A stretch of 33,400 bases of DNA from a virus. How positions within the stretch are numbered: position 1 is the stretch's first letter; each line of letters begins with the position of its first letter. The position numbers and the translations under genes are program-made. The notes under the pieces are model-generated. The model had not been told where the DNA came from. It was given only the letters and a program-made list of their open reading frames with translations, and ran no database searches. The stretch spans positions 1 through 33,400 of IMG/VR virus record IMGVR_UViG_3300042304_000197; one strand, written 5' to 3'. Positions 3,992 to 21,562 of this stretch are shown piece by piece.

Positions 3992-5161
3992 ATGGCTGAT
4001 TTTTCATTAACCACGTTATTCGTGGTTCCAGTAGGGCAAACTGCACTCCCTAGCTCTGGCTCAACACAAAACTTGACTGCAGGACAAGTTGGTATTTTTA
4101 AAAGCGACTATTCGTTAGCTACTGCTGCGAACATTGCTGCTGCTCCATATTTTTATGTAGCTCAAGGTAGAACAAACACTTACTTACAAGGATCTAAAAG
4201 ATCTGACAAGATCAAAGGATGCCCTTCAGGATCTGGTTGTAGTTCAAATGTAACAGAATGGTACAAAGTATCAGGATGTCCTACAGCTGCAAACCAAATT
4301 ACTGATGTAACTGATTTCACTGTACAATGTGGAGAAACTATCACGTTAACTTTACGTGCTCACTCTTCTTACATTGATACATTGTATTTCAATGGTTTCA
4401 CTCGTTCAGTAACTATTCAAGCTCCATGTTGTAATTGTGATGACAACCCATGTGATGATGTAAGCACTAACACTATCATCAATGAGTTGATTTATCAATT
4501 AAACTTAAAAGCTCCAGGAAACAACCCTGACAACATTTCTTTCTCTACATTCTATACATTTGAAAATGTAGGTGGTACAATTTTACGTATTACAGGAAAA
4601 CCATTAACTAAATATGGACAACCTTGTGATGTAGCAGCGTTCCCTTTTGAATATGACAGAATGTCTTTCAGAACATTTGTATATTCTGGTCCAGCTACTA
4701 CTGCTGACTTTATCGTAGCAGATGCTTGTAACTTTGTTGCTCAACCAGTTATTACTCAACGTGCATCTTATGCTACAGGTACATCTGCAGAAATTGCTCA
4801 ATTAGAGAAAAACTTCTACAGCTACCAAGCAGGTTACTTGAAACACCTTTACAGAATGAATGGGTACAATGAGAACTTTGAGTCTTGGGTGTCTGATGGC
4901 GTAACTTATGATACATACTACATTAGATTTAATGAGTATAACAAATCTGAGTACCAGTGGGGTGATTATATTATGGAAGATTCTACTGTAATCATTGCTG
5001 CTCCAAACGCTTTAACAAGTGGTATTGCTGCTGCAATTGAAACTGTATTAGAAGCTGCTTTAGGAACTGTTGTTGACAATAATGCTTGTATCACTACAAC
5101 TACTACAACTTCTAGTGCTCCTGCATCAACAACAACTACTACTTCTACTCTTATCCCTTAA
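3992..5161 (+). CDS. Structural protein with poly-Thr tail, candidate capsid accessory protein
   Basis: A 389-residue, beta-rich protein. Features visible: Cys clusters GCPSGSGC (about residues 75-82) and CCNCDDNPCDD (about 148-158), an aromatic middle region (NFYSYQAGYLKHLYRMNGYN), and a carboxy-terminal tail of Thr/Ser repeats ending TTTTTSTLIP. No catalytic motif is seen. Position within the head block and regular codon use suggest an abundant virion component such as an auxiliary capsid or neck protein; this is inference. The Thr tail matches tails and linkers in five other proteins of this window. A strong hairpin follows the stop. Confidence 0.75.
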   Translation: MADFSLTTLFVVPVGQTALPSSGSTQNLTAGQVGIFKSDYSLATAANIAAAPYFYVAQGRTNTYLQGSKRSDKIKGCPSGSGCSSNVTEWYKVSGCPTAANQITDVTDFTVQCGETITLTLRAHSSYIDTLYFNGFTRSVTIQAPCCNCDDNPCDDVSTNTIINELIYQLNLKAPGNNPDNISFSTFYTFENVGGTILRITGKPLTKYGQPCDVAAFPFEYDRMSFRTFVYSGPATTADFIVADACNFVAQPVITQRASYATGTSAEIAQLEKNFYSYQAGYLKHLYRMNGYNENFESWVSDGVTYDTYYIRFNEYNKSEYQWGDYIMEDSTVIIAAPNALTSGIAAAIETVLEAALGTVVDNNACITTTTTTSSAPASTTTTTSTLIP

Positions 5162-6298: not shown

Positions 6299-7405
6299 AT
6301 GTCCAATTGCTCAAATTGTTATAACGGATGTACAGAAATTGTCTCTGACAGATGTGTTAAATATACAGGAATAGATGTTCCTGTTCTAGGAATACAAACA
6401 GGTGATTCATTATCATTTGTAGAACAAGCATTAATTACATTCCTTACATCTACATTAGATGGTACAGGAATAAAAATTGATCTTACACCTACAGTGATAT
6501 GTAATCTTGTACAACAATATCTTCCTACATGTGGAGATCTTTCTATTGTAGATATATCAAAAGCTCTTATAGAAGCTGCTTGTGATCTTCAATTGCAAAT
6601 TGATGCTATAGTTACAGACATAGTAACAATTAATAATGAATTAAATGTAATTGAAGCTGATTATACTGTAAGATGCCTTACAGTTGCAACACCTTCTATA
6701 ACACCTTCTTCAGGAACACATGCTATTCTTCAGGCTACAATAGATACATTATGTGCATTAGCTTTAGATCTTAGTACAAATTATGTAAGTATAGCTAATA
6801 TTGATACTTACATTGCAGCATATATTAGTGGATCAAGTTCATTAGTAAGTGCTAAAATGATTCCTTATGTAGCAGTTCCTTATTTCAATCCAGATCTTTC
6901 AAACTTTGATGGTACAGGAGCTGGTATAGGAAACTGGGCTAAGATTTATTTATGTAATGGAGCTAATCCAGGTGTACCTGATTTAAGAGGTAGAGTGTTA
7001 GTAGGAACCACTACAGGAATGAATGGCGGCTCTCTCAACACTGCTGTTGATCCTGCTTTAGGTAACCCTCCTTATTCATTAGGAACTACAACAGGTGTGA
7101 ATCAAGTTACACTTGGACCTACACAAATTCCTAGTCATACACATGCTATTACAAATGTTGTAAATGTGACTGATCCTGGACATACACATGCTCTTAGTAA
7201 TATTCAAAATAATACTAATGCTTTTGGAGTTAATGGATTTTTTGACCGAGCTGCTGGAGGAGCATCATCAGGATTATTAACTACTAGTTCTACTACAGGT
7301 ATTACTGTTAGTGTAAATTCTTCAGCATCTAATTTTGGTGGAAATCTTCCTCATCAAAATAATCAACCTGCAATTGGTTGTTACTATATTATATATATAC
7401 CTTAA
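6299..7405 (+). CDS. Fibre protein with C-terminal tail-collar domain
   Basis: A 368-residue protein. Residues 1-20 carry four Cys (4, 7, 11, 19). Residues 20-120 form an attachment and coiled-coil-like region (AIVTDIVTINNELNVIEADY). The carboxy half resembles the phage tail-collar family: WAKIYLCNG near 213-221, PDLRGRVLVG at 227-236, two HxH motifs at 280-282 and 295-297, and NLPHQNNQPAIGCYYIIYIP at the end. In T4 short tail fibres similar HxH motifs bind metal inside the trimer and the collar domain sits in the receptor-binding tip. A trimeric head or tail fibre recognising the host surface is therefore likely. Which end of the virion it decorates is not visible from sequence. Confidence 0.8.
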   Translation: MSNCSNCYNGCTEIVSDRCVKYTGIDVPVLGIQTGDSLSFVEQALITFLTSTLDGTGIKIDLTPTVICNLVQQYLPTCGDLSIVDISKALIEAACDLQLQIDAIVTDIVTINNELNVIEADYTVRCLTVATPSITPSSGTHAILQATIDTLCALALDLSTNYVSIANIDTYIAAYISGSSSLVSAKMIPYVAVPYFNPDLSNFDGTGAGIGNWAKIYLCNGANPGVPDLRGRVLVGTTTGMNGGSLNTAVDPALGNPPYSLGTTTGVNQVTLGPTQIPSHTHAITNVVNVTDPGHTHALSNIQNNTNAFGVNGFFDRAAGGASSGLLTTSSTTGITVSVNSSASNFGGNLPHQNNQPAIGCYYIIYIP

Positions 7406-7417
7406 TAAATCATCAAT

Positions 7418-8176
7418 ATGTCATATCCATATTTACCAGTAAATCCTTGCTGTACAAATGTAGTTTTAAATACACCTTGCGGATGTAGTTCTATTATAAC
7501 CAATACTGGTTGTAACACTAACAATCCATGTTCAACACATTTAACTGCATCTAGTACTATTGTTTATGATGGTCCTGAATTACCATGTATAGTGGCTGAA
7601 CCATGTGATACTTTGAATGTGATCTTACAAAAGATAGATGAAATTATATGCAATTTAACATTACAAGTAAATTATTTAAATAATCAAGTTACTAATATCA
7701 CTAATCAGATAATCACTATTAATGGTGATATAATTAATATAAACAATCAGTTAGATGTTTGTTGTAATGTTACAACTACCACTACCACTACTGCAGTTAA
7801 GTCTACAACAACGACTACCACTAAATTGGAACCAACTACTACTACTACCACAACAACGTTTGCTGGAGCTTGTACATGTTTCCATGTTGCTATAAATCAA
7901 GCAGATATAACTAATGCTACAGGTAATACATTCCCTGAACTTAATGGTAAAGTGTACTTACAAACTTCTAAAGATTCAGCTTGTGAAGGTGGTGATATAG
8001 CTGCAGAATACTCAACTTTCACTTCAGATGGTTTCTGTATTCTAACAAGTGAAGTAAGTTCGATACAGTTGTTCTATTATAAAGATGATGTTCCAATTTA
8101 CTATCCAGCTACAGTTAGTACATATAATGTACTGTATAGCACATGTTCAGTAAATGGAGAATGTTTACCTGTATAA
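7418..8176 (+). CDS. Fibre-like protein with Thr linkers, paralogue of the next gene
   Basis: A 252-residue protein in three parts: a Cys-rich start (Cys 11, 12, 21, 23, 32, 38); a module with PCDTLNVILQKIDEIICNLT followed by an Asn/Ile heptad stretch ending DIININNQLDVCC; and, after three Thr runs (about residues 124-147), a C-terminal domain of about 100 residues with several Cys. The middle module is clearly related to that of the gene at 8200 (CDGLNTILAKFNTIICN and DVININNQLNICC). This fits a trimeric stalk with an exchangeable tip. No enzyme motif. It is probably a surface fibre, from architecture. Confidence 0.72.
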   Translation: MSYPYLPVNPCCTNVVLNTPCGCSSIITNTGCNTNNPCSTHLTASSTIVYDGPELPCIVAEPCDTLNVILQKIDEIICNLTLQVNYLNNQVTNITNQIITINGDIININNQLDVCCNVTTTTTTTAVKSTTTTTTKLEPTTTTTTTTFAGACTCFHVAINQADITNATGNTFPELNGKVYLQTSKDSACEGGDIAAEYSTFTSDGFCILTSEVSSIQLFYYKDDVPIYYPATVSTYNVLYSTCSVNGECLPV

Positions 8177-8199
8177 AAACTAACGTTAAATAAACAAAG

Positions 8200-9033
8200 A
8201 TGGCTGATTGCTCTCAGATAAATAATACAACAATAAAAGGAACGAGTGCTGTTACATACGATAGCACTCCACTTCCTTGTACAGACGTGAATACATGTGA
8301 TGGTTTAAATACTATACTTGCTAAGTTTAATACTATTATATGTAATGTTACAGATAGTGTAAATACACTTACAGAAGACATAACAAATCTTACTGAAGAC
8401 TTGATAATTATAATTGATGATGTAATTAACATTAATAATCAATTAAACATATGTTGTCCAACAACAACTACAACATCATCATCAACTAGTACAACATCAT
8501 CATCAACTAGTACAACTACAACAACTACCACTGCTGTTCCTACTACAACTACCACCACGACTGTAGCACCAACAACAACAACAACAAGTTCAACAACAAT
8601 TGCACCAATTATTCCAACATATTCTTTAGCGGAATCTCAGAATTTTACTGGTGGAAGTCCTTTTTCTTTCTCGGATAGTTTGATGATAGGTACTCCTTCT
8701 GGAAGAGCTGATTCATTTGGTATAAACTATTTAGGTACAAGTTCAACATCTTGGAAAACATTAGTTGTAACTGGATTCAATCCAGATTATGATGGAGATG
8801 GAAATACACTTTGGACTTTACAGATAACTACTGGTGGTGGTACTCCTTCATATCCTCAATCTATAGATGTTACTGGAATTGCTAATGCTAATGGTCCTAC
8901 ATTTAAGGTTGTTTATAATGATCCAACTGGAACACATAGAGCATCTGGTCAGTATTGTAGAATAACATACTATATAATAGATTCAAATAATCAACAAGGT
9001 GCATTAGCAACGCTTACAATAGGGGCTCAGTAA
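8200..9033 (+). CDS. Fibre-like protein with long Thr/Ser linker and beta-sandwich-like tip
   Basis: A 277-residue protein. Residues about 15-85 repeat the stalk module of the preceding gene. Residues 88-143 are an almost pure Thr/Ser/Pro linker with AVP, VAP and IAP spacers, including a perfect tandem repeat of TTSSSTS. Residues about 145-277 form a separate domain that looks like a beta-sandwich (STSWKTLVVTGFNPDYDGDG, TTGGGTPSYPQSIDVTG). It ends in GAQ. Just beyond the stop, another frame still reads a poly-Thr-Ile-Pro tail, suggesting a frameshift or replaced end (see 9042-9068). It is probably a host-binding or capsid-decorating fibre; the ligand is unknown. Confidence 0.72.
   Translation: MADCSQINNTTIKGTSAVTYDSTPLPCTDVNTCDGLNTILAKFNTIICNVTDSVNTLTEDITNLTEDLIIIIDDVININNQLNICCPTTTTTSSSTSTTSSSTSTTTTTTTAVPTTTTTTTVAPTTTTTSSTTIAPIIPTYSLAESQNFTGGSPFSFSDSLMIGTPSGRADSFGINYLGTSSTSWKTLVVTGFNPDYDGDGNTLWTLQITTGGGTPSYPQSIDVTGIANANGPTFKVVYNDPTGTHRASGQYCRITYYIIDSNNQQGALATLTIGAQ
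8470..8511 (+). repeat. Perfect 21-base tandem repeat in the Thr/Ser linker
   Basis: Two identical 21-base units lie at 8470-8490 and 8491-8511, each encoding TTSSSTS in frame. Because the unit is a whole number of codons, slippage changes linker length without breaking the gene. Confidence 0.9.
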
Positions 9034-9041
9034 TATCATCT

Positions 9042-9068
9042 AACACCACAACTACTACAATTCCTTAA
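9042..9068 (+). pseudogene. Relic poly-Thr tail downstream of a fibre gene
   Basis: After the TAA at 9031-9033, a different frame reads N-TTTTT-I-P followed by TAA (9042-9068). The frame stays open upstream to at least 9003. This is the same ending style as the genes ending at 5161 (STLIP) and 19977 (TITPL). It looks like the former or alternative 3' end of the upstream gene, separated by a frameshift. Confidence 0.5.
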
Positions 9069-9078
9069 CAATTAAACT

Positions 9079-9693
9079 ATGACAGTATTAATAACATTAA
9101 CAACAGCAGGAACAGATTCTGGTCCTTTTAATTTGTATTCAAATCTAGATGGATATACATCAGCATTTGAAGTGGGAGTTTCTAAATCAGCATTGCTTGC
9201 AGGATATTCTTCTTCATCAGTTCCAGATTTTGCAACTATAATTAGAGTAAAATCTACAGGGGATTGTGTAAACTATATAGACATTACATTAGTAGGAACT
9301 ACAACAACCACCACTACTACAATTGCTCCTACTACCACAACTACTACTACTTCTCCAGTCGGCTCAGGTTTAGTTTTTATTAATAATTTTGATACTTTTG
9401 GGAGTATTGGTGATGTACAAGTAAATACAATTTCTATTTTTGTAACTTCAGGAGCATTTCCAGTATTAGGAGGAGAAAATGCTATAGGAAATTATGGAGG
9501 TGCCATACCAGGACTTTCTACAGTAGGAGTATTTGTTTCTGTGGCAACAGATGCTCCAATAAATCTTACATTAAGTACAGGATATACAGATTGTCTTATA
9601 ACTACAGGTTATGTGGAATTTACAGGAGTAGATTTATCAACAAATCCAAACATAACAATAACTCTTCAACCTCAAGGGTCAGCATGTTTATAA
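9079..9693 (+). CDS. Virion-surface-like protein, GPFN module plus Thr linker
   Basis: A 204-residue protein. Residues about 1-72 form a small beta module with SGPFNLYSN near 14-22 and VKSTGDCVNYIDITLV near 57-72. This module recurs at the start of the protein at 19990 (GPFNISDQFG, IESTGKCKFKK). Residues 74-93 are a Thr linker with one IAP spacer. The rest (VGSGLVFINNFDTFGSIGDV onward) is beta-rich and rich in Gly, Thr and Val, like an immunoglobulin- or lectin-type tip. No catalytic motif or signal peptide is seen. It is the last gene before a strong terminator. Role in decoration or adsorption is inferred from architecture. Confidence 0.7.
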   Translation: MTVLITLTTAGTDSGPFNLYSNLDGYTSAFEVGVSKSALLAGYSSSSVPDFATIIRVKSTGDCVNYIDITLVGTTTTTTTTIAPTTTTTTTSPVGSGLVFINNFDTFGSIGDVQVNTISIFVTSGAFPVLGGENAIGNYGGAIPGLSTVGVFVSVATDAPINLTLSTGYTDCLITTGYVEFTGVDLSTNPNITITLQPQGSACL

Positions 9694-9887: not shown

Positions 9888-11102
9888 ATGTCTGAAAATC
9901 AAAGCTTGTTATACCAATTAGAAGAGTTATTAACGCAGAAGAAAAGTAAAAAATTCTATGCTGAGAAACTAGGAATAAGTGAATTTGAGGTTAATGAACT
10001 CATGAAGGAGCTTAAAGAAAAAGATACAGAACCTGTATCAAGAAACTATACAGAAGAACGCAAAGTTAATGTTGAAAAAGGCACAATAGAAAGTACAATT
10101 ATATCAGACTTTGAACCTAAAGATGATATTGAATTAGCTAAGCTACATAAGATAAATCTAGATAAGTATGTTATAACAAACTACTGGTCTAAAATGTTAC
10201 CAAGTGGGAAGTTCACTTCCTCAATCTTCTCAAAAAGAAAAGAAGCAAAAGATTATTCTCCTGAAGACTTTGCTAAGTTTTTAGAAAACTACAAACCAAA
10301 TAATATCCCAGTCACCAAAGTAGATCGTGCTAATAGTAAAGACTATGTAGATGTAGAAATCTCTATATCTGATTATCATTTAGCTAAGAGAACAGTAGAT
10401 GGTGACAATGATGTAACTACACGAGCTTTAAGATATGTTACTGTGGCTCAGTCTTTGATTGACAAAGTGGAAGCTTGTTACAACATAAACACTGTTGTTC
10501 TTCCTATATCAAATGATTACTTCCATACTGATAACTATCAACATCAGACTACAAATGGTACTCCACAGGATACTATAATGGATTATGCTGATGAGTATGA
10601 AGTGGGATTTGCTATTCTTGTAGATACAATCAACATGTTGAGAAAACATTCTAGTACAGTAAAGGTTGTTTTAGTACAAGGAAATCATGATAGAACTAAA
10701 TCTTTTTACCTAGCACATGCATTAGATGTATTCTTTAAAGATATAGATGATGTAGAGTTTATTAGAGAACATAGTGTTGTTAAAGGAATGACACTAGGAA
10801 ATACATTTATTGGATGGCACCATGGTAACTGTAAGTTAGAAGACTTACCATTATTATTTGCAACACATCCTAAATATAGTCATCAATTTGGTGATGCTGT
10901 TTACAGAGAGGTACATACAGGAGATAAACATCACTATATGGCTAAAGAGGTTAAGGGAGTAAGAATACAACAAATGCCCAGTTTGTCTGGAGTAGACCGT
11001 TGGCATATGGACAATAATTTTGTTCATTCAATACGTTGTGCATTAGCACTAGTATATGATAGTGAACTAGGAAAGATTTGTGAATTTGAACATAGAATAT
11101 AA
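9888..11102 (+). CDS. Calcineurin-like metallophosphoesterase
   Basis: A 404-residue protein. Residues 1-45 look like a winged-helix or HTH segment (AEKLGISEFEVNELMKELK). The enzyme domain has the metallophosphoesterase motif series: D162-x-H164 (SDYHLAKR), N209-D210 with H213 (a GDxxH variant with Asn in place of Gly), G265-N266-H267-D268 (GNHDR), H311-H312-G, and H343 with GDKHH 345-349 in place of GHxH. Metal ligands are essentially complete, so activity on a phosphodiester or phosphomonoester is likely; the substrate is unknown. It opens the tail-gene operon just after a promoter. An alternative ATG at 9878 gives only a five-codon frame. It may act in DNA processing during assembly or host take-over. 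Confidence 0.85.
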   Translation: MSENQSLLYQLEELLTQKKSKKFYAEKLGISEFEVNELMKELKEKDTEPVSRNYTEERKVNVEKGTIESTIISDFEPKDDIELAKLHKINLDKYVITNYWSKMLPSGKFTSSIFSKRKEAKDYSPEDFAKFLENYKPNNIPVTKVDRANSKDYVDVEISISDYHLAKRTVDGDNDVTTRALRYVTVAQSLIDKVEACYNINTVVLPISNDYFHTDNYQHQTTNGTPQDTIMDYADEYEVGFAILVDTINMLRKHSSTVKVVLVQGNHDRTKSFYLAHALDVFFKDIDDVEFIREHSVVKGMTLGNTFIGWHHGNCKLEDLPLLFATHPKYSHQFGDAVYREVHTGDKHHYMAKEVKGVRIQQMPSLSGVDRWHMDNNFVHSIRCALALVYDSELGKICEFEHRI

Positions 11103-11103
11103 T

Positions 11104-11868
11104 ATGCATTATTTATATAGACATATAAGATTAGATATAGATCAACCATTTTATATTGGCATCGGAACTATGGCTAATAAAAAATTTAAAACAATTAAAT
11201 CAAGATATTCAAGAGCAAATTCTAAAACACAAAGAAGTAAATACTGGAATAGTATAATTAATAAAACAAATTATGAGGTAGAAATTCTTTTAGAATCAGA
11301 TGATTATGATTTTATAAAAGATAAAGAAATAGAATTTATTAAATTATATGGTAGAGTAGATAATAAAACAGGAATATTATGTAATCTAACTGATGGTGGA
11401 GATGGTGTAGTAGGTTGTATTTGTTCAAAAGAATCCAGTATTAAAAAATCTATAAACAGTAAAAAAAGTTTATTAGGAATATATGGAAAAAATCACCCTG
11501 CATCTAAAGTAATATATCAATATGATTTACAAGGTAATTTTATAAAAGAATGGAGTAGTATTATAGATACAGGTTTTAACAATTTAAAACCAAAAAGTTC
11601 TAGTCAAAATGGAAATTATTTTTTTGCTAGGGGTTATTTATGGAGTCACAATTTTAATTTAAGTGTTGATGAATACAAAAAATTTGACTATATTACTCAT
11701 AAAAAACAAATAGAAATGTTTGATTTAAATAATAACAAATTAAATACTTTTGATTCTGTAAAAGAAGCTGCTTTATTTTTAAATAAAACTTCTTCAAGAG
11801 CAGATATAAGTAAGGCAGCAAATGGTAAAAGAAAATCTGCATTAGGATATTTTTGGAAATATAAATAA
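11104..11868 (+). CDS. GIY-YIG homing endonuclease, free-standing
   Basis: A 254-residue protein from the ATG at 11104, one base after the upstream stop; a TTG at 11080 would overlap that gene and is less likely. The nuclease domain (residues 1-105) has YLYRHIR with PFYIGIG at 15-21, R44 and W48 in a basic helix, E75 or E77 (DKEIEFIK), and N94 in LCNLTDGGDG. Residues about 128-254 hold DNA-binding repeats typical of homing enzymes: GKNHPASKVIYQYDLQGNFI and IEMFDLNNNKLNTFDSVKEA, with GYFWKYK at the end. It sits between two virion genes of one operon, with very low G+C, which suits a mobile gene that cuts genomes lacking it. No intron was seen. Confidence 0.85.
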   Translation: MHYLYRHIRLDIDQPFYIGIGTMANKKFKTIKSRYSRANSKTQRSKYWNSIINKTNYEVEILLESDDYDFIKDKEIEFIKLYGRVDNKTGILCNLTDGGDGVVGCICSKESSIKKSINSKKSLLGIYGKNHPASKVIYQYDLQGNFIKEWSSIIDTGFNNLKPKSSSQNGNYFFARGYLWSHNFNLSVDEYKKFDYITHKKQIEMFDLNNNKLNTFDSVKEAALFLNKTSSRADISKAANGKRKSALGYFWKYK

Positions 11869-13084: not shown

Positions 13085-14059
13085 ATGTCATACTACTATA
13101 AATATAATTTCGTATCCCCAGAGCCTGTCTACTCAACTGTTAAAGAAGAGCTTAAAAGCTATTTCGATACTGGTGCAGTGGATGATCTTTTATTTCCTAC
13201 CTACTTAGATAAAGCTCTAAAGAAGTTAGGAAGAACCACATTTGTAATAAGTGAAGAAGTCTTATTTATAGAAGATTTTGAAGCTAGGCTTCCAGATAAC
13301 TTTTATGCTGTAAGAGAAGCTTGGATGTGTACAGAAGTTGCTGGTTATCCATATCAATCAGCTAATTCATTTTATTCTCAAGCAGCTAACGCAACTACTA
13401 TTCAAGTGGCCCCATTAACTATTGGAGGAACTCCTTGTAATAGACCTGGTTGTCAAGATACTGCTTGTAACGGTACATGTATGCCAACATTAGTTCAAGC
13501 TGTATACAAAACAAACAACACTGTGGCTAGAGGATTTACTCACGAGTATTTACTTAAACCTGGAAACATCTCTGCAAGACAAAACTGTGGAGTGGAGTAT
13601 ACAAACAATTGGGACTTCTATGCAGAAGCTCCACCTATTCATGAGTTTACTCCTGGTGCTGCTAGTTATGATTCATTTGATGTTAGAGATAATAAGTTTG
13701 TAACTAATTTCAGAAATGGAACAGTTCATTTATTATTCTATGCTACAGAATATGATGAGATAGGAAATCAAATGATTCCTGATAACTATCGTATTAGAGA
13801 GTATGTAGAAGCATTTCTTAAATTCAAGATATTTGAAATCCTGACTAATCAAACTAATGATGAAACTTTCAATCAGTTACAACAAAAGTTGATGTATTAC
13901 AAGCAGGCATATGAAGAAGCTTACATCATGGCTGATATTGAAATCAAGAAACAAACTCCTTGGGAGAAACAAAGAAGAATTAAAAACGATCTTAACAGGT
14001 TTAATATGTACGAACTTCCTAACAGAACTAATCGTTATGGAAGAAGACGTAATAATTAA
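13085..14059 (+). CDS. Head-tail connector ring protein, P22 gp4-like (tail tubular)
   Basis: A 324-residue protein resembling the crAss-like tail-tubular/ring protein that binds beneath the portal. Diagnostic stretches are YFDTGAVDDLLFPTYLDKAL (27-46), IEDFEARLPDNFYAVREAWM (62-81) and, near the end, NYRIREYVEAFLKFKIFEIL. Residues 118-132 form a Cys loop (Cys 118, 123, 128, 132) that may bind metal or form disulfides. The carboxy end is basic (KKQTPWEKQRRIKNDLNRFN) and would suit contact with DNA or the portal. It is immediately upstream of the muzzle gene (5-base gap), as expected for neighbouring parts of a short tail. Confidence 0.85.
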   Translation: MSYYYKYNFVSPEPVYSTVKEELKSYFDTGAVDDLLFPTYLDKALKKLGRTTFVISEEVLFIEDFEARLPDNFYAVREAWMCTEVAGYPYQSANSFYSQAANATTIQVAPLTIGGTPCNRPGCQDTACNGTCMPTLVQAVYKTNNTVARGFTHEYLLKPGNISARQNCGVEYTNNWDFYAEAPPIHEFTPGAASYDSFDVRDNKFVTNFRNGTVHLLFYATEYDEIGNQMIPDNYRIREYVEAFLKFKIFEILTNQTNDETFNQLQQKLMYYKQAYEEAYIMADIEIKKQTPWEKQRRIKNDLNRFNMYELPNRTNRYGRRRNN

Positions 14060-14064
14060 TCATT

Positions 14065-17000
14065 ATGGCTGAAGAAAAACAACAAGGGAACGTAAGACAA
14101 GAGTACAATAATGCTACTGTAGGACTGAACATGGATCAATCTGTTAATCAGATTAAGCCAGGTACTCTTACATATGCATTAAATGCTGCCTTGGAAAACT
14201 TTGATGCTAGTTCTGTTAACTATCAGAATGAACAAGGTAATGAGTTTTGTGTAAGTTTCCCAAAAGGATTTACATTAATAGGTAATCATTTTATTGCAGA
14301 ACAAAGTAAACATATATTCTTTATAACCAATCCTAATACAGGAGACTGTCAGATTGGGTATATGGATAACAATGATTGTATCTATCATATATTAGTACAA
14401 GGTAAATGTCTTAATTTTAATGTAAATAATCCAATACAAAAAACAGTACATAAGATTACAAACTGTACAACAGAAATATATTGGACAGATGGATTGAATC
14501 CAAGAAGATATTTAGATATTAATAATGTTCCTTATATACTAGCACCTCAATCAGAATTATGTGATCCTGTATATACAGATCAGTTAGATTGTAATCAATT
14601 GAAGATACAACCTAATTTCAGTATTCCAGAATTAAATGTTGTTGATGTAATCAGTGGTGGTGAATTAAAAGCAGGAGTTGTACAATTTGCTATACAATAT
14701 TGTGATGCTGCAGGTAATGCATTCACATCATACTATTCTGTTACCAATCCTACACCTATTGCTGATCCATTTATCACTACAGTTAATTATGATTACACTG
14801 TTGGTAAATCAGTTGTAGTTGATATTACAGGATTAGATACTACAGGACAATATCAATATTATAACTTAGCAGTGATTACCACTGTAAACGCTATCACTTC
14901 TGTAGAATTAGTTGGTACATATTTTATTGAAAACTCATTTGATCAAGTTACATATACTGGTCAAAACGTAGATAACATTCGTTTAGTTATTGCAGACATA
15001 TTTGAAAAATATCCTTACTATGATATTGCACAAGATTTAACAGCTGTACAAGATGTTCTTGTATGGGATAATCTTACATCTATAGATAGACTTAACTATC
15101 AATCTATTGCCACTAAAATAAAACTTAATTGGCAAACATATAGAATACCAAATGATGAAAACTATGCTAATGAGATGAATGCTACAAATTTGCGTGGATA
15201 TCTACGTGATGAGGTGTATGCATTTGAGATAGTGTTTTTATTAAAAAATGGAAAGCAAACAGATGGTTTCCATATCCCTGGAAGAGAAATAGGTTATAAT
15301 GATTTACAATATCCAAATGTACTAGATACGGATCCAGATTTTATTGGAAATCCAGAACCAGGTACAAACTATAGTCCTTATTGGAAGATATATAATACAG
15401 CAACCGTAATAGGACCTGCAACAGGAGAAGATATTGGAAATGCAACACCATATCAATATGGTGAATTTGCTTACTGGGAATCTACAGAAGAATATCCTTG
15501 TAACGAAGATTTGTGGGGTGAACTTGCTGGTAAAAATATTAGACATCATAAATTTCCAGATGTTCTTGTAAGTCCTATATTTGAGAATCCTACATATGTA
15601 TATTCGGGAACTCAAGTAGTTCCTGTAATGCAAAATGATGCAGTGTATCCAATTGGTGTAAGAGTTGATGTTGGACAAATTAGTGCATTGATTGCACAAT
15701 CATCATTAACTGTAGAACAAAAGGATGACATTGTTGCATTCAAAATAGTTAGAGGTGACAGAGGAACAAACAAATCTATTGTAGCTAAAGGGATACTTCG
15801 TAATGTTGGATCTTATGAAAGACAGAACCAAACTCTTTACTATCCAAACTATCCATACAATGACCTTAATTCAGATCCTTTCTTAAATGAATTTAACAAT
15901 GCATATAACTTAATATCTGATCCATGGTTAATAATAAACAATACTGGTGCTCCTATAACATATACATTCAAAGATCCTAATACAAACCAAACTGCTCAAG
16001 ATACAGTAGGTCCTGGAGAAACTCATGAGATTTGTTCAACAAGTAGACCTGTAACAAAAGAGGGTAATGCAGAAGGTAATGCACTTATTGGACCTGCAAA
16101 CTATGATGTATTCTTTATAAGTGGATGTGAAGGTTGTAGAGGATATAGAGCAAACTGGGCCACTCCATTTACTACAGATAACACTGTACTTAATGTAAGA
16201 GATCCATGGATTGATGGTATAAGTGAAGGTTTGTTTGGAGCATTTGGAGGTGGATGTAGTACAGAATATGCTACAGTAAATGTTGGAGGAAATGTTGGTG
16301 ATGATTGTAGTAATGGATTTTGGGATGGAGCTTGTAAATGTGATGTATCAATTACATATAAAGATCCAATTACTCCAGATAGAGGATCGGTAGATTTTAC
16401 TCAAAGTAGAAGGTCTCCACTTAACTGTAAAGGACAAACTCCTATTCCTGCTTTTACTGGTGGAACTTTAAACTATAGACAAATATTTAATTCTCCTGAA
16501 ACATCATTTGGACAACCATTCTTAGGTAATGTATTAAAACTTGAGAACGTAATGTTTGGTGCTGGTAGAGCACATTTTGTTCCAGTGGAAAGTAATGCTA
16601 AATATAAACTTCTTACACAAGAAGCTCAAAGAGATGCATTAGCTAGTTCAGAAAATTTAGCAAATATTGGTGGATTCAATGCTTCATATATGTTTGCTGC
16701 ATATCAAGCATACCTAACTATATATGTAAATGGTATTACAAGAAAGAACTATGCATACTCATTTAATTCAATAGCTAACTATGACTACTTTGGAAACATA
16801 AATAATGGTCTTGGTATTAAACAAAGAACAATTGATTTTGCTCGTTATTTAATTCCAGGTGTTCAATCTGTTGGAGAACCAGGTGGTATTAATGTAAACA
16901 ACTTTGAAAGAGAAAGCTCTGTATATATCAAAACTATAGAAGAAAGAGATGGTGCTATTTCTGTTACACCTTTAGAATTTCCTAGCAAGACACCAAGTCT

Positions 17001-19977
17001 TGTTTCAGGAGGAACTTCTATCATTACAGATAAATCTAGGTTTACTATAGGAAGTCGTGCTGTATGTAATTCTCCAGGTAAAGAACAAGACATTAGTGTT
17101 GTATCTTATTATGGTTCTATGAAAAATATATTTGTAAACCAATGGGGACAGATATATTCATACAATACTATTGATACAGGGTTCCAAAGAAAACTTAATT
17201 CAGGAAATACAGATGTTGCTACTGTTTTTGGTGGTGATACATTTATCTCTAGATTTACATTCAAAACAAAACTTCCATTCTTTATAGATAACAGAGTTAA
17301 TGCTCCTGATGATTCAGACATATTCTATGATGAAATTGGTAACGTAGCTTATCCAAAATACTGGCACTCTGCTAGATCTATTCTTTCAGACTATACAGCA
17401 CAAGGTCAAGTTATGTCAAATATTGTTTCGTATAAAGCAAACTATCTTGATTGTCCTAATTACAATCCTGTAACATTTGCAATTAATTCACCTTCTGGTT
17501 CAAATAGAACATTCTATGATGGATACTTTTATTTGTTTGCATATGGAGTACCTAACTTCTATTGTGAGACTTCTTACAACTTAGATCTTAGACAAGCATT
17601 CAATAATAGAGAAGGTGACTTCTGGCCACATGTATCAACAGGTATTCCTGATGCGTGGGTTCAAGAAGATTACGTATCTATACAAAATGATAATACGTAT
17701 ACTTATAATGTAACATTCTCTAAACAAAACAAAGAGAATACATTTACTCATTTACCACCTGATTGGGTTGAACAATTCTGTTATACAAATTATCCATTTA
17801 GAGCAATCTATTCAGATTCTCAAAACACAGATGCTGATAATAGAGTGAACAGTTGGTTAACGTATAGAGCATTATCATATTTTGATTTCCCTCAAAATTA
17901 TGGAGGACTTATATCATTAGATGGTATTCAGAATAAAGCTGTGCTTGCTAGATTTGAGAATAAGAGTTTATTATATAACAACTTATTAACTATTGATACA
18001 AGTAATCCACAAGCTGCATATGTAGGTAATCCTAATATGTTTAGAGGTGCTCCTCCTATTGATTTTGCTGAAACAGATCTTGGATATGTAGGAAGTCAGA
18101 ACAAGTTCTTATTAAAGATTCCTCAAGGACAAATAACAGTGGATGCTAAAAGAGGTCAGATATTTTTAATCTCTGGTACACAAGCTGTAGATATTTCTGC
18201 ATTTGGTAGTGGTATGAACAGATTTTTTACAGACCATTTAGCGTTTGAGATACTTAGATATTTCCCTGATGTAAATATAGATAATAACTTCACTGGAGTT
18301 GGACTTCATGGAGTGTATGATAGTAAATTTGATAGAATTATTTTTACTAAATTAGATTACATTCCTATTGATAAAGATGTTAGATATGATTCTACATTAC
18401 AACAGTTTTATGTAGAAGATGTAATTAACGGAATTACATTAAGAACACAAGTATACTTAACAGACCCTGATTACTTCTGTAATAAGTCTTGGACTATATC
18501 ATTCAATATGAATACTAAGAGCTGGGTAAGTTTCCATACATATATTCCTAATTTCTATATAGCAGAAAACAATTTCTTCTATTCAGGAATTAATGGATGT
18601 TGTGATGATATTAGTTTCTCTGCATTAGTTGGAAATTTAATACCTCCTACTAGTACAACAACCACTACAACACAAACTCCTCCAACAACCACAAGTACAA
18701 CCACAATAGGTTTAGATTGTCAGTTAGGAGGAATAGCAGTTACGTTGATATGTAACTTAGCAGGTACTGGTATAATAACTGTACCTTCTCCAAGTACAAC
18801 AACAACAACTACAGTGTGTTCTAGACCTGCTGGATTAATTGAATACGGATTTGCTACTGGATATCAAGTGGGATCTAATCCTGCAGTTATTTCTACAGGA
18901 AGTCTTGTAGATGCTTGTGCTGCTATTGCATTTACAATCACTGCTCCTTTAGGATTAACATTGTCAGGAATAACTGTTATGGCTGCAAATCTTTCAATAG
19001 GTACTTTTGTTTATTTAGGAACAGGTACTAATTGTACATTAGTTCCTAATGGATGGTATTTTACAGAAGAAGGTCAAACAGAAGGATTTGCTTATGAAGT
19101 AATTAATGGAGTTATTGCACAAATTTCATATTGTAATTCTAATAAAACTACTACATCAACTACTACGTTGGTTCCAAACGTTCCAGAATGTTGTGGAATA
19201 TTATTTAGTGAAGGAAATAACATAAATCTTCTTAATCAAGATGGAACATTAAGCCCATTATCAGTGCCAGGATATACAAGCTCTTACGGAATAGAATTAT
19301 CTTTAGACAAATTATGGTCTATCGGTAGTCAAATTATTGAATGGGATGTTACACTAAGTCCTTTCAGTGCAGTGTTTAATAGAAACATAACACTCCCTGG
19401 AGGATTTACAACAGCTACTGGAATATCATCATTAAGTGATACGTTATTAATTGCTGTAGATTCATCAGCTAGTCCTCAAGAAGTAGTTGAGTTAAATATA
19501 ACTACTACTACTGCAGTTATGACTACTGTGTTTCCATTACAAGCAGATAGAGTTGCGTTAGGTAATTTCTTATACACTACATCTGGTAAGTTCTTAATAC
19601 TTAATCAGGATTCAATTACATCAGCATACTATCTTACTCAGTATGATTATGCAACTGCTACAATTGATCTTGATATAGATCTTGGGTCAGTTGTTCCTGT
19701 ATCAATGTTCTCATGTAGATGTGTTGTATATGTTATAGATACTTCAGGAGATGTTTATACAGTACAACCAGCTGTTCCATATGAATTAAATATAATAGAT
19801 AATTTTGGTATAGTTCCTAATTCAGCTACTCAATCAAATTCATGTATAATATGTTCATTAACAGATAATGGAAATCTTCTTACTACTACTACAAGTACAA
19901 CGAGTGCTCCAATAACCACCACTACAACAACAGCTGTACCAACAACTACTACCACTACTACAATAACGCCTCTTTAA
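14065..19977 (+). CDS. Giant muzzle / tail stabilization protein (P22 gp10-like) with added Thr-linked domains
   Basis: A 1970-residue protein. Residues 1 to about 1525 resemble the crAss-like muzzle that seals the tail: an opening region (QEYNNATVGLNMDQSVNQIK; TYALNAALENFDASSVNYQN), a blade-like part with EIYWTDGLNPRRYLDI, and a late segment WTISFNMNTKSWVSFHTYIP then FFYSGINGCC. Then come extra parts: Thr linker about 1527-1548, a short Cys module, a linker near 1578, a domain of about 100 residues, a linker near 1694, and a repeat domain of about 240 residues that could be a beta-propeller. The end is a poly-Thr tail, TTTTTTTITPL. The usual muzzle C-terminus seems to be encoded by the next gene. 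This chain is larger than I expect for the family because of the additions. Confidence 0.82.
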   Translation: MAEEKQQGNVRQEYNNATVGLNMDQSVNQIKPGTLTYALNAALENFDASSVNYQNEQGNEFCVSFPKGFTLIGNHFIAEQSKHIFFITNPNTGDCQIGYMDNNDCIYHILVQGKCLNFNVNNPIQKTVHKITNCTTEIYWTDGLNPRRYLDINNVPYILAPQSELCDPVYTDQLDCNQLKIQPNFSIPELNVVDVISGGELKAGVVQFAIQYCDAAGNAFTSYYSVTNPTPIADPFITTVNYDYTVGKSVVVDITGLDTTGQYQYYNLAVITTVNAITSVELVGTYFIENSFDQVTYTGQNVDNIRLVIADIFEKYPYYDIAQDLTAVQDVLVWDNLTSIDRLNYQSIATKIKLNWQTYRIPNDENYANEMNATNLRGYLRDEVYAFEIVFLLKNGKQTDGFHIPGREIGYNDLQYPNVLDTDPDFIGNPEPGTNYSPYWKIYNTATVIGPATGEDIGNATPYQYGEFAYWESTEEYPCNEDLWGELAGKNIRHHKFPDVLVSPIFENPTYVYSGTQVVPVMQNDAVYPIGVRVDVGQISALIAQSSLTVEQKDDIVAFKIVRGDRGTNKSIVAKGILRNVGSYERQNQTLYYPNYPYNDLNSDPFLNEFNNAYNLISDPWLIINNTGAPITYTFKDPNTNQTAQDTVGPGETHEICSTSRPVTKEGNAEGNALIGPANYDVFFISGCEGCRGYRANWATPFTTDNTVLNVRDPWIDGISEGLFGAFGGGCSTEYATVNVGGNVGDDCSNGFWDGACKCDVSITYKDPITPDRGSVDFTQSRRSPLNCKGQTPIPAFTGGTLNYRQIFNSPETSFGQPFLGNVLKLENVMFGAGRAHFVPVESNAKYKLLTQEAQRDALASSENLANIGGFNASYMFAAYQAYLTIYVNGITRKNYAYSFNSIANYDYFGNINNGLGIKQRTIDFARYLIPGVQSVGEPGGINVNNFERESSVYIKTIEERDGAISVTPLEFPSKTPSLVSGGTSIITDKSRFTIGSRAVCNSPGKEQDISVVSYYGSMKNIFVNQWGQIYSYNTIDTGFQRKLNSGNTDVATVFGGDTFISRFTFKTKLPFFIDNRVNAPDDSDIFYDEIGNVAYPKYWHSARSILSDYTAQGQVMSNIVSYKANYLDCPNYNPVTFAINSPSGSNRTFYDGYFYLFAYGVPNFYCETSYNLDLRQAFNNREGDFWPHVSTGIPDAWVQEDYVSIQNDNTYTYNVTFSKQNKENTFTHLPPDWVEQFCYTNYPFRAIYSDSQNTDADNRVNSWLTYRALSYFDFPQNYGGLISLDGIQNKAVLARFENKSLLYNNLLTIDTSNPQAAYVGNPNMFRGAPPIDFAETDLGYVGSQNKFLLKIPQGQITVDAKRGQIFLISGTQAVDISAFGSGMNRFFTDHLAFEILRYFPDVNIDNNFTGVGLHGVYDSKFDRIIFTKLDYIPIDKDVRYDSTLQQFYVEDVINGITLRTQVYLTDPDYFCNKSWTISFNMNTKSWVSFHTYIPNFYIAENNFFYSGINGCCDDISFSALVGNLIPPTSTTTTTTQTPPTTTSTTTIGLDCQLGGIAVTLICNLAGTGIITVPSPSTTTTTTVCSRPAGLIEYGFATGYQVGSNPAVISTGSLVDACAAIAFTITAPLGLTLSGITVMAANLSIGTFVYLGTGTNCTLVPNGWYFTEEGQTEGFAYEVINGVIAQISYCNSNKTTTSTTTLVPNVPECCGILFSEGNNINLLNQDGTLSPLSVPGYTSSYGIELSLDKLWSIGSQIIEWDVTLSPFSAVFNRNITLPGGFTTATGISSLSDTLLIAVDSSASPQEVVELNITTTTAVMTTVFPLQADRVALGNFLYTTSGKFLILNQDSITSAYYLTQYDYATATIDLDIDLGSVVPVSMFSCRCVVYVIDTSGDVYTVQPAVPYELNIIDNFGIVPNSATQSNSCIICSLTDNGNLLTTTTSTTSAPITTTTTTAVPTTTTTTTITPL

Positions 19978-19989
19978 TAAGTTTAAACT

Positions 19990-20856
19990 ATGTCAAAGAC
20001 TTTAACAATAAAATTAACAATATCTGGACCAAGTGTTGGACCATTTAATATCAGCGATCAGTTTGGTAATGTTATTGCTATGGACGTACCTAAAAAAATA
20101 TTAATCAGAGGAATAAGTTATACAGTGAATGATAATGTTAGTATTATTGTAATTGAATCTACAGGAAAATGTAAGTTTAAAAAGAGCTTTGCAGTTAGCA
20201 CCTTTGATATTATAGAATATGCTAACACAGGATACACTCAAACTACAACAGCTTGTATATGGAGACACTTAACTAACATAAGACTTTACAATACATTCTA
20301 TGGAAACATAGATCCTTATATTATTGAGTACCCTTTTGCTTATGAATATCAAGATCAGATATTACAGAATGTAAAAGACTACACTAAGGCATATGAATAC
20401 TATCCTATAGAAGATGGTGTGTTTAATGATAACACAAGAATAGAAACAAATGATAAATGGTTTAACCAAGCAATAGTATACAACTCTCAGCAAAACTCAG
20501 GGTTATTAAATCTTGTAGCAAAACCTTTAAACAATTTAAAAGCTTATAATAGTTATCCAATATATAGTACAGATGGTAAAACTATAATGTATACTAAATC
20601 TGATAATTTTTATCAGTACAATACTTTTTGGAATGTGCAAATAAATTCACAACTTCCTGCATTTAAAACTACATGTGAATCTTTATCTGTAGATAAAGTA
20701 TTAAATCAAAATAATATGGATTATGGAATGTTAAGTTTTAAAAAAGCAACTATACGAGCTAAAGATTTGAGAATCAGGCATATTTTAAACAATAGTTCTA
20801 CAACTCATTTAGTTTCACAATTTATTACTACAGGATCTCAAATATCTTACAAATAA
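19990..20856 (+). CDS. Probable separated C-terminal part of the muzzle, with an N-terminal GPFN module
   Basis: A 288-residue protein starting 12 bases after the muzzle stop. Residues 1-70 are a small beta module paralogous to that of the protein at 9079. From about residue 88 the sequence (CIWRHLTNIRLYNTFYGN, EYPFAYEYQDQILQNVKDYT, MYTKSDNFYQYNTFWNVQIN, KKATIRAKDLRIRHIL, SQFITTGSQISYK) looks like the C-terminal region that, in other crAss-like muzzles as I remember them, follows directly after the WVSFHTYIP segment. The muzzle would therefore be a two-chain assembly here. Alternative: an independent tail protein conserved at this site. Confidence 0.7.
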   Translation: MSKTLTIKLTISGPSVGPFNISDQFGNVIAMDVPKKILIRGISYTVNDNVSIIVIESTGKCKFKKSFAVSTFDIIEYANTGYTQTTTACIWRHLTNIRLYNTFYGNIDPYIIEYPFAYEYQDQILQNVKDYTKAYEYYPIEDGVFNDNTRIETNDKWFNQAIVYNSQQNSGLLNLVAKPLNNLKAYNSYPIYSTDGKTIMYTKSDNFYQYNTFWNVQINSQLPAFKTTCESLSVDKVLNQNNMDYGMLSFKKATIRAKDLRIRHILNNSSTTHLVSQFITTGSQISYK

Positions 20857-20905
20857 TTAGGATTTGTCAAATGATAAAGTTATCTTTACTGGACAAAATA
20901 TAGTT

Positions 20906-21562
20906 ATGAAAAATATAGAAAAAATTGTAGCAGGAAGTAAAATAGGTGAGTGTATATTTATGGAAGAATTAGATTCAAAAGTTTTTCCTAAGACTAAAAC
21001 AAGTAAACGAATTAGAACTAGAAGAATTGGTTTGTTTAAATGTAATTGTGGAAATGAATTTAAAGCAGATATTTCTTTAGTTAAAAAAGGTAATACAAAA
21101 TCTTGTGGTTGTTTATTTAAACAAACATCAAAAAAGGCAAAAAGAATAACACATAATAAAACAAATCATCCATTGTATAATACTTGGGTAGGGATGATTA
21201 GAAGATGTACAAAAGATACTTCTATTAGTTTTATTAGATATGGTGCTATTGGTATTAAAGTTTGTAATGACTGGATGGATGTAAATAAATTCATTGAAGA
21301 TATGTATCCTAGTTATAAGAAAGGGTTACAGTTAGATAGAATAGATAACTCTGGAAACTATCATAAAGGTAACTGTAGATGGGTTACACCTAAAGTAAAC
21401 AGCAATAATAGAAAAGATAATAGAATAATTGAATACAAAGGTTTAGTTAAAACATTAAGTGAATGGTCAGATGAATTAAACATTCCTGTTAACACTTTAA
21501 GATATAGATTAAATAATTGGGATATAGAAAAATCTTTTACTTATAAAAATAAAATAGAATGA
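20906..21562 (+). CDS. HNH homing endonuclease, free-standing
   Basis: The ATG at 20906 gives 218 residues; an in-frame TTG at 20864 would add 14, but the family usually starts close to the GxxxG-type segment, so I prefer ATG. The N-terminal zinc module is KCNCG...SCGC (Cys 46, 48, 67, 69). The HNH core is LQLDRIDNSGNYHKGNCRWV (142-161) then NNRKDN. The C-terminal part is a helical DNA-binding segment (LSEWSDELNIPVNTLRYRLN). It sits between the muzzle C-part and the next virion gene. Its TGA stop overlaps the next ATG (ATGA), and it is the only gene here not ending in TAA, consistent with foreign origin. Confidence 0.88.
   Translation: MKNIEKIVAGSKIGECIFMEELDSKVFPKTKTSKRIRTRRIGLFKCNCGNEFKADISLVKKGNTKSCGCLFKQTSKKAKRITHNKTNHPLYNTWVGMIRRCTKDTSISFIRYGAIGIKVCNDWMDVNKFIEDMYPSYKKGLQLDRIDNSGNYHKGNCRWVTPKVNSNNRKDNRIIEYKGLVKTLSEWSDELNIPVNTLRYRLNNWDIEKSFTYKNKIE

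Follow-up and report, generated by a model that had tools for sequence, protein, structure and literature searches.

The muzzle is reported to be highly conserved across Crassvirales, in which a single protein gates the ejection of both DNA and protein. In phiCrAss001 this protein is gp44 (PDB 7QOK/7QOL; PMC10172136), a single polypeptide in which both of the sites considered below are tight turns. PMC10172136 places IG2, with the crass domain inserted, at gp44 318–1021, attributes variation in muzzle length to insertions within crass and IG2 rather than to chain breaks, and reports that phiCrAss001 tails contain disulfides. Phage genes in two parts are already known: in the 'genes in pieces' Aeh1 nrdA, T4 topoisomerase gene 60 and phage 25 gene 43, a conserved gene is divided between two coding regions, and the two products act jointly (PMC2988022). 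The muzzle described here shares that arrangement, but whereas those genes encode enzymes and were split by, or are associated with, homing endonucleases, it is a virion gate protein with modules on its cut ends and a covarying cysteine pair. It belongs to the same protein family as gp44 but, unlike gp44, comes as two chains and bears, at the second turn, a Thr-linked tail and a GPFN module (a family named in the present analysis). No split muzzle is described in the open-licence literature that we searched, which is weak evidence of novelty; the split is new within a known protein family.

The window analysed comprises positions 1 to 33,400 of IMG/VR record IMGVR_UViG_3300042304_000197. A ring protein gene (ORF 13085–14059; CrAss_Ring_1, E 1.7e-9) lies upstream of the muzzle, which is encoded on the plus strand by P1, a 1970-aa ORF at 14065–19977, and, after a gap of 12 bases, by P2, a 288-aa ORF at 19990–20856. 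P1 is matched by crAss_MUZ (PF25731) at E 1.8e-39, above the curated Pfam cut-off, and by phrog_37948 at E 4e-111, bearing out its earlier assignment to the crAss-like muzzles. P2 matched nothing in PHROG and, in Pfam, nothing that cleared the cut-off. The body of P1 (residues 1–1511, 14065–18597), which comprises everything before the cut and is co-linear with the fused muzzles of relatives, stops at FFYSGING, residue 1511. A tail of Thr-linked, variable segments, putative decoration domains, then runs to the stop codon (residues 1512–1970, 18598–19974), with Thr/Ser runs at residues 1529, 1541, 1577, 1695, 1940, 1951 and 1960. P2 opens with the GPFN module (residues 1–85, 19990–20244), followed by CIWRHLTN and the remainder of a core of about 200 residues (20254–20853) up to the C terminus. 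Both ORFs are thus laid out as the preliminary description had it, and the same layout recurs in the nearest relatives. Unlike the window's muzzle, those of two relatives, L032 (2124–7151) and L036 (1188–6461), had no PF25731 match in hmmscan, perhaps a HMMER filter effect.

The two chains correspond to one chain in relatives. In each of four named phages, a single contiguous ORF takes both the P1 match (to residues 1509–1511) and the P2 match (from residues 75–90) in tblastn/blastp searches: Leptolyngbya phage Lbo-JY46 (1654 aa), Cellulophaga phage phi4:1 (2289 aa), csAssE-Sib (2257 aa, annotated as muzzle) and Flavobacterium phage Fpv1 (1783 aa). The end of the P1 match and the start of the P2 match lie 3–10 residues apart in Fpv1 (1586/1590), phi4:1 (2098/2103) and csAssE (2059/2069) and overlap slightly in Lbo-JY46 (1455/1448), and the best E-values against fused relatives, 6e-96 for P1 and 9e-21 for P2, are far better than chance would give. 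P2 from about residue 90 to 288 is therefore the missing C terminus of the muzzle. These muzzles are full-length homologues of P1 plus P2 but, unlike the window's, are uncut at both turns; those of phi4:1 and Fpv1 carry inserts at the first turn, and the records of Lbo-JY46, phi4:1 and Fpv1 are without a GPFN module. The proposal that one ancestral muzzle chain was cut, with modules added to both new ends, is supported by this comparison, which places the cut at a turn that is contiguous in fused relatives.

A contrary case, set out in advance, was that P2 belongs to a separate family, an accessory tail protein in its own right that merely resembles the muzzle C terminus and works beside an intact muzzle; in favour of it, P2 has a start and an N-terminal module of its own and no PHROG or above-cut-off Pfam match. 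Yet the P2 sequence resumes exactly at the point where P1 stops, and the muzzles of split phages are without the P2-core part. Moreover, exactly one P2 core was present in each of the 22 whole records searched, 14 of which are split at the same turn as the window, so that an intact muzzle in addition to the split one was seen in none of the split phages among them. An accessory origin of P2 is accordingly highly improbable.

Nor do the halves appear to be rejoined during expression. The window's P1 stop and P2 start happen to share a frame, as would be expected if frameshifting, readthrough, splicing or a sequencing error concealed one continuous gene. Across 125 adjacent pairs, however, the frame of the P2 start relative to the P1 stop was divided 54/39/32, and these mixed frames leave no conserved frameshift or readthrough; programmed recoding was ruled out on this basis. 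Against a rejoined chain there are also the recurrence of the layout in independent contigs, the entire ORFs that lie between the halves in some relatives, and an Rfam search at the break that returned no match, to introns or to other RNA. A gene that is not truly split is therefore scarcely credible, and we infer that P1 and P2 are separate translation products. A Shine-Dalgarno-like signal is missing in most of the 125 pairs. Where crAss_MUZ describes a single polypeptide the window has two ORFs, and these, together with the mixed frames across relatives, lead us to file its muzzle as a split variant rather than as a standard member.

We surveyed the state of the turns with HMMs for three blocks, K (P1 876–1440), M (P1 ~1447–1510) and T (P2 ~89–288), in 339 sequences, mostly from five IMG/VR scans; all three blocks were found in 326 loci. 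At loop 2, the M–T junction cut in the window, muzzles are either fused in one ORF with a gap of 0–57 nt or split with a gap of 413–5359 nt, and none of the fused proteins among the 326 loci carries a domain insert there, all keeping a tight turn. Loop 1, the K–M junction, is tight, carries an insert of up to 458 aa in one chain, or is split. In the window this turn (approximately P1 1443–1465, 18391–18457) is intact, with a K–M gap of 21 nt. Of the 210 distinct loci, loop 2 alone is split in 125, both loops in 22, loop 1 alone in 7 and neither in 56, counts that are not frequencies because each scan contributed its best 80 loci and sampling is biased towards the window's kin. The window's layout is thus shared by 147 of the 210, and muzzles split at both loops, as in L008, L032 and L036, consist of three chains.

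On a tree of 208 rows, the state of loop 2 requires two changes and that of loop 1 ten. The loop-2 splits form one strongly supported clade, save for a single fused muzzle nested inside it (99/99), that of L103 (3867–8843 of IMGVR_UViG_3300027736_000055). The split is real, precise and fixed in nearly all of one clade. Because the trees nest L103 within the split clade, re-fusion is suspected; AU tests do not reject its placement outside (p 0.83 and 0.25), and L103 may be either a re-fusion or a fused sister of the clade. Loop 1, the turn neighbouring loop 2, has been broken independently and repeatedly, in at least three separate places: within the loop-2 clade, in the group of L165 near phi4:1, and in L196 near Flavobacterium phages.

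The fused L103 muzzle offers a natural template for the joint fold of the two chains, and we modelled its C-terminal 847 residues with AlphaFold2 from 62 aligned rows. The model is confident across most of residues ~480–847, with pLDDT mostly 80–94 in the cut region. Loop 2 is a three-residue turn between adjacent β-strands (640–644 and 648–652) in a confident hairpin, and loop 1 lies between strands 582–585 and 590–593. The best Foldseek matches in the PDB are the phiCrAss001 muzzle chains 7qol_P and 7qok_A (E ~1e-14), with TM-scores (0.2–0.34) kept low by the poor confidence of much of the model's first half. Profile alignment (hhalign, five crAss001-like muzzles) pairs L103 301–838 with gp44 966–1365 at 98.4% probability. 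Searching PDB sequences with individual proteins or with profiles found nothing, and Foldseek with P2 alone gave no significant match; the link of the C terminus to gp44 came only from the fold search and the profile of crAss001-like muzzles. Homology and fold match of the C-terminal part to gp44 were thus established on L103, and the P2 core is homologous to the T regions of fused muzzles.

In gp44 the equivalents are ~1233–1239 for loop 2 (FKDG|KMW, cut at ~1236) and near 1191–1206 for loop 1. Since residue ~1236 lies past the end of IG2 and crass at 1021, the cut probably falls in the later, propeller part of gp44 and not in the distal crass domain, so that the initial placement of the modules on the 'tail tip' was imprecise. 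When P2 was modelled alone, the GPFN module, mostly β, was predicted with pLDDT mostly 82–91, while residues 87–106, around the first core strand, fell below 50, as expected if that strand needs P1.

The two sides of the cut covary. Just past the cut, P1 reads SGxNGCC in most of the 147 distinct split loci and SGLNEGC in the others; two residues before a conserved Trp, P2 has a cysteine in the former and a serine in the latter. The extra P1 cysteine and the P2 cysteine occur together in 118 of the 147 and are jointly missing from the other 29, and at no locus does one occur without the other. Fused junctions are mostly (58 of 63) without cysteine. In the window the residues are P1 Cys1512 (18598–18600), directly after the cut, and P2 Cys89 (20254–20256), which we predict to form an inter-chain disulfide. 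These cysteines might instead be bonded elsewhere, either inside the tail or to further virion proteins, their covariation reflecting shared ancestry alone: the pair changes state just twice on the tree, so the covariation may represent as few as two evolutionary events, and P1 tails contain further cysteines. Such an explanation is somewhat unlikely given that all 147 sequences agree, among them the lone L115, where both cysteines are lacking, and given that alignment makes the two positions neighbours in the turn of L103.

In comparisons of the window with six near relatives, dN/dS is 0.07–0.19 for the body and 0.41–0.56 for the tail, 0.19–0.51 for the GPFN module, and 0.06–0.12 for the P2 core where dS is computable, the last being rough because dS is near saturation. 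Purifying selection acts on both the body and the P2 core; the tail values, being below 1, are as compatible with relaxed constraint as with diversifying selection. The median tail is 318 aa long, the extremes being 25 and 1690 aa, and Thr runs occur in 143 of 147 loci. The window tail matched no Pfam family, and with domains of no recognised family a binding role for it is a guess. Among loop-1-split relatives, Pfam finds Fib_succ_major domains in L032, L036 and L138, and PKD_5 and LRR domains in L165, the LRR just under cut-off. The Thr linkers, the hypervariability and these lectin-like, LRR and PKD domains suggest that the added modules may bind the host. RVT_1, a reverse transcriptase as in a diversity-generating retroelement, was found in none of 15 relatives' records, some of which are fragments.

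The GPFN module had been called unrelated, but it is not foreign to the phage, since further genes of these genomes also use members of its family. An N-terminal pattern, GPF...L..G...S.G.C, is conserved across the alignment and present in P2. Split-clade records hold 1–6 copies and five fused outgroup records none; the L103 record has one, elsewhere than in the muzzle. In the window a second user, ORF 9079–9693, opens with a GPFN module followed by Thr runs. This ORF belongs to a row of Thr-rich ORFs (6299–9693), and ORF 3992–5161 likewise ends in Thr runs. A number of relatives have stand-alone GPFN genes between P1 and P2, and an economical origin would be that such a gene was inserted at the turn and supplied the start codon of the severed C-terminal half.

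The split could be real and yet neutral, a mobile gene insertion having fractured a muzzle whose halves still fit, with tails that are decorative or drifting. Phage precedents exist in Aeh1 nrdA and gene 43 (PMC2988022); an HNH-endonuclease-like ORF (20864–21562; phrog_374, E 3e-55) directly follows P2 in the window, and a similar-looking ORF lies between the loop-1-split halves in L104, L110 and L167. We consider neutrality unlikely, as tails and GPFN modules are kept across the clade (T-runs in 143/147), lectin-like, PKD and LRR domains occur in loop-1-split relatives, and the same kind of place was reused at loop 1. The 12-base break between P1 and P2 holds no endonuclease gene, and such an ORF is found at the loop-1 break only in L104, L110 and L167.

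Several further observations concern the neighbouring genes. In L104, L110 and L167 the ORF inside the loop-1 break (at ~7204–7809) resembles a homing endonuclease; L165 and L170, closely related to them, have the split but no such ORF. The near relatives L002–L007 have a different ORF after P2, starting at the P2 stop. For the P2 core (20254–20853), dS against L003 and L002 is 1.4–1.7, compared with 0.25–0.35 for the muzzle body; the core looks to have recombined from another lineage, perhaps via conversion next to the HNH ORF. In L115 (5838–7791) three ORFs separate the muzzle halves, one lysozyme-like by eye and one Thr-linked and display-like, and the start of window ORF 11080–11868 resembles, by eye, a GIY-YIG endonuclease.

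The best explanation, to which we assign a probability of roughly 88%, is that a single muzzle subunit, opened at a turn and decorated at its cut ends, is built from the two chains P1 and P2. An ancestral single-chain muzzle would have been opened at a tight β-hairpin turn of the C-terminal region, in the propeller part; its upstream half would have gained a Thr-linked, fast-changing tail and its downstream half a start codon and a small β GPFN module from a family used elsewhere in these genomes. The separately translated chains would fold together into one protomer, presumably with the site exposed at the surface, and in most of the clade a Cys1512–Cys89 disulfide would lock them at the cut. 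The opened turn could then act as a port at which tails grow, shrink and swap and, in some relatives, whole display-like genes sit between the halves; the likely benefit would be the carriage of surface-binding modules without fitting a domain inside a closed turn. That the port is dedicated to exchange, the free ends and intergenic gap of a disulfide-stapled two- or three-chain muzzle allowing whole host-recognition cassettes to be swapped with the gate left undisturbed, we put forward tentatively, at somewhat less than even odds.

The split explains why PHROG and Pfam searches leave P2-like genes as unknown proteins, and a clade-wide natural cut reveals which turn the muzzle fold can spare, offering naturally evolved and possibly disulfide-locked split sites. 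The cut also provides a direct handle on tail-surface variation in these phages. If the turn is indeed an exchange port, the structure of the tail gate and its surface specificity would evolve separately.
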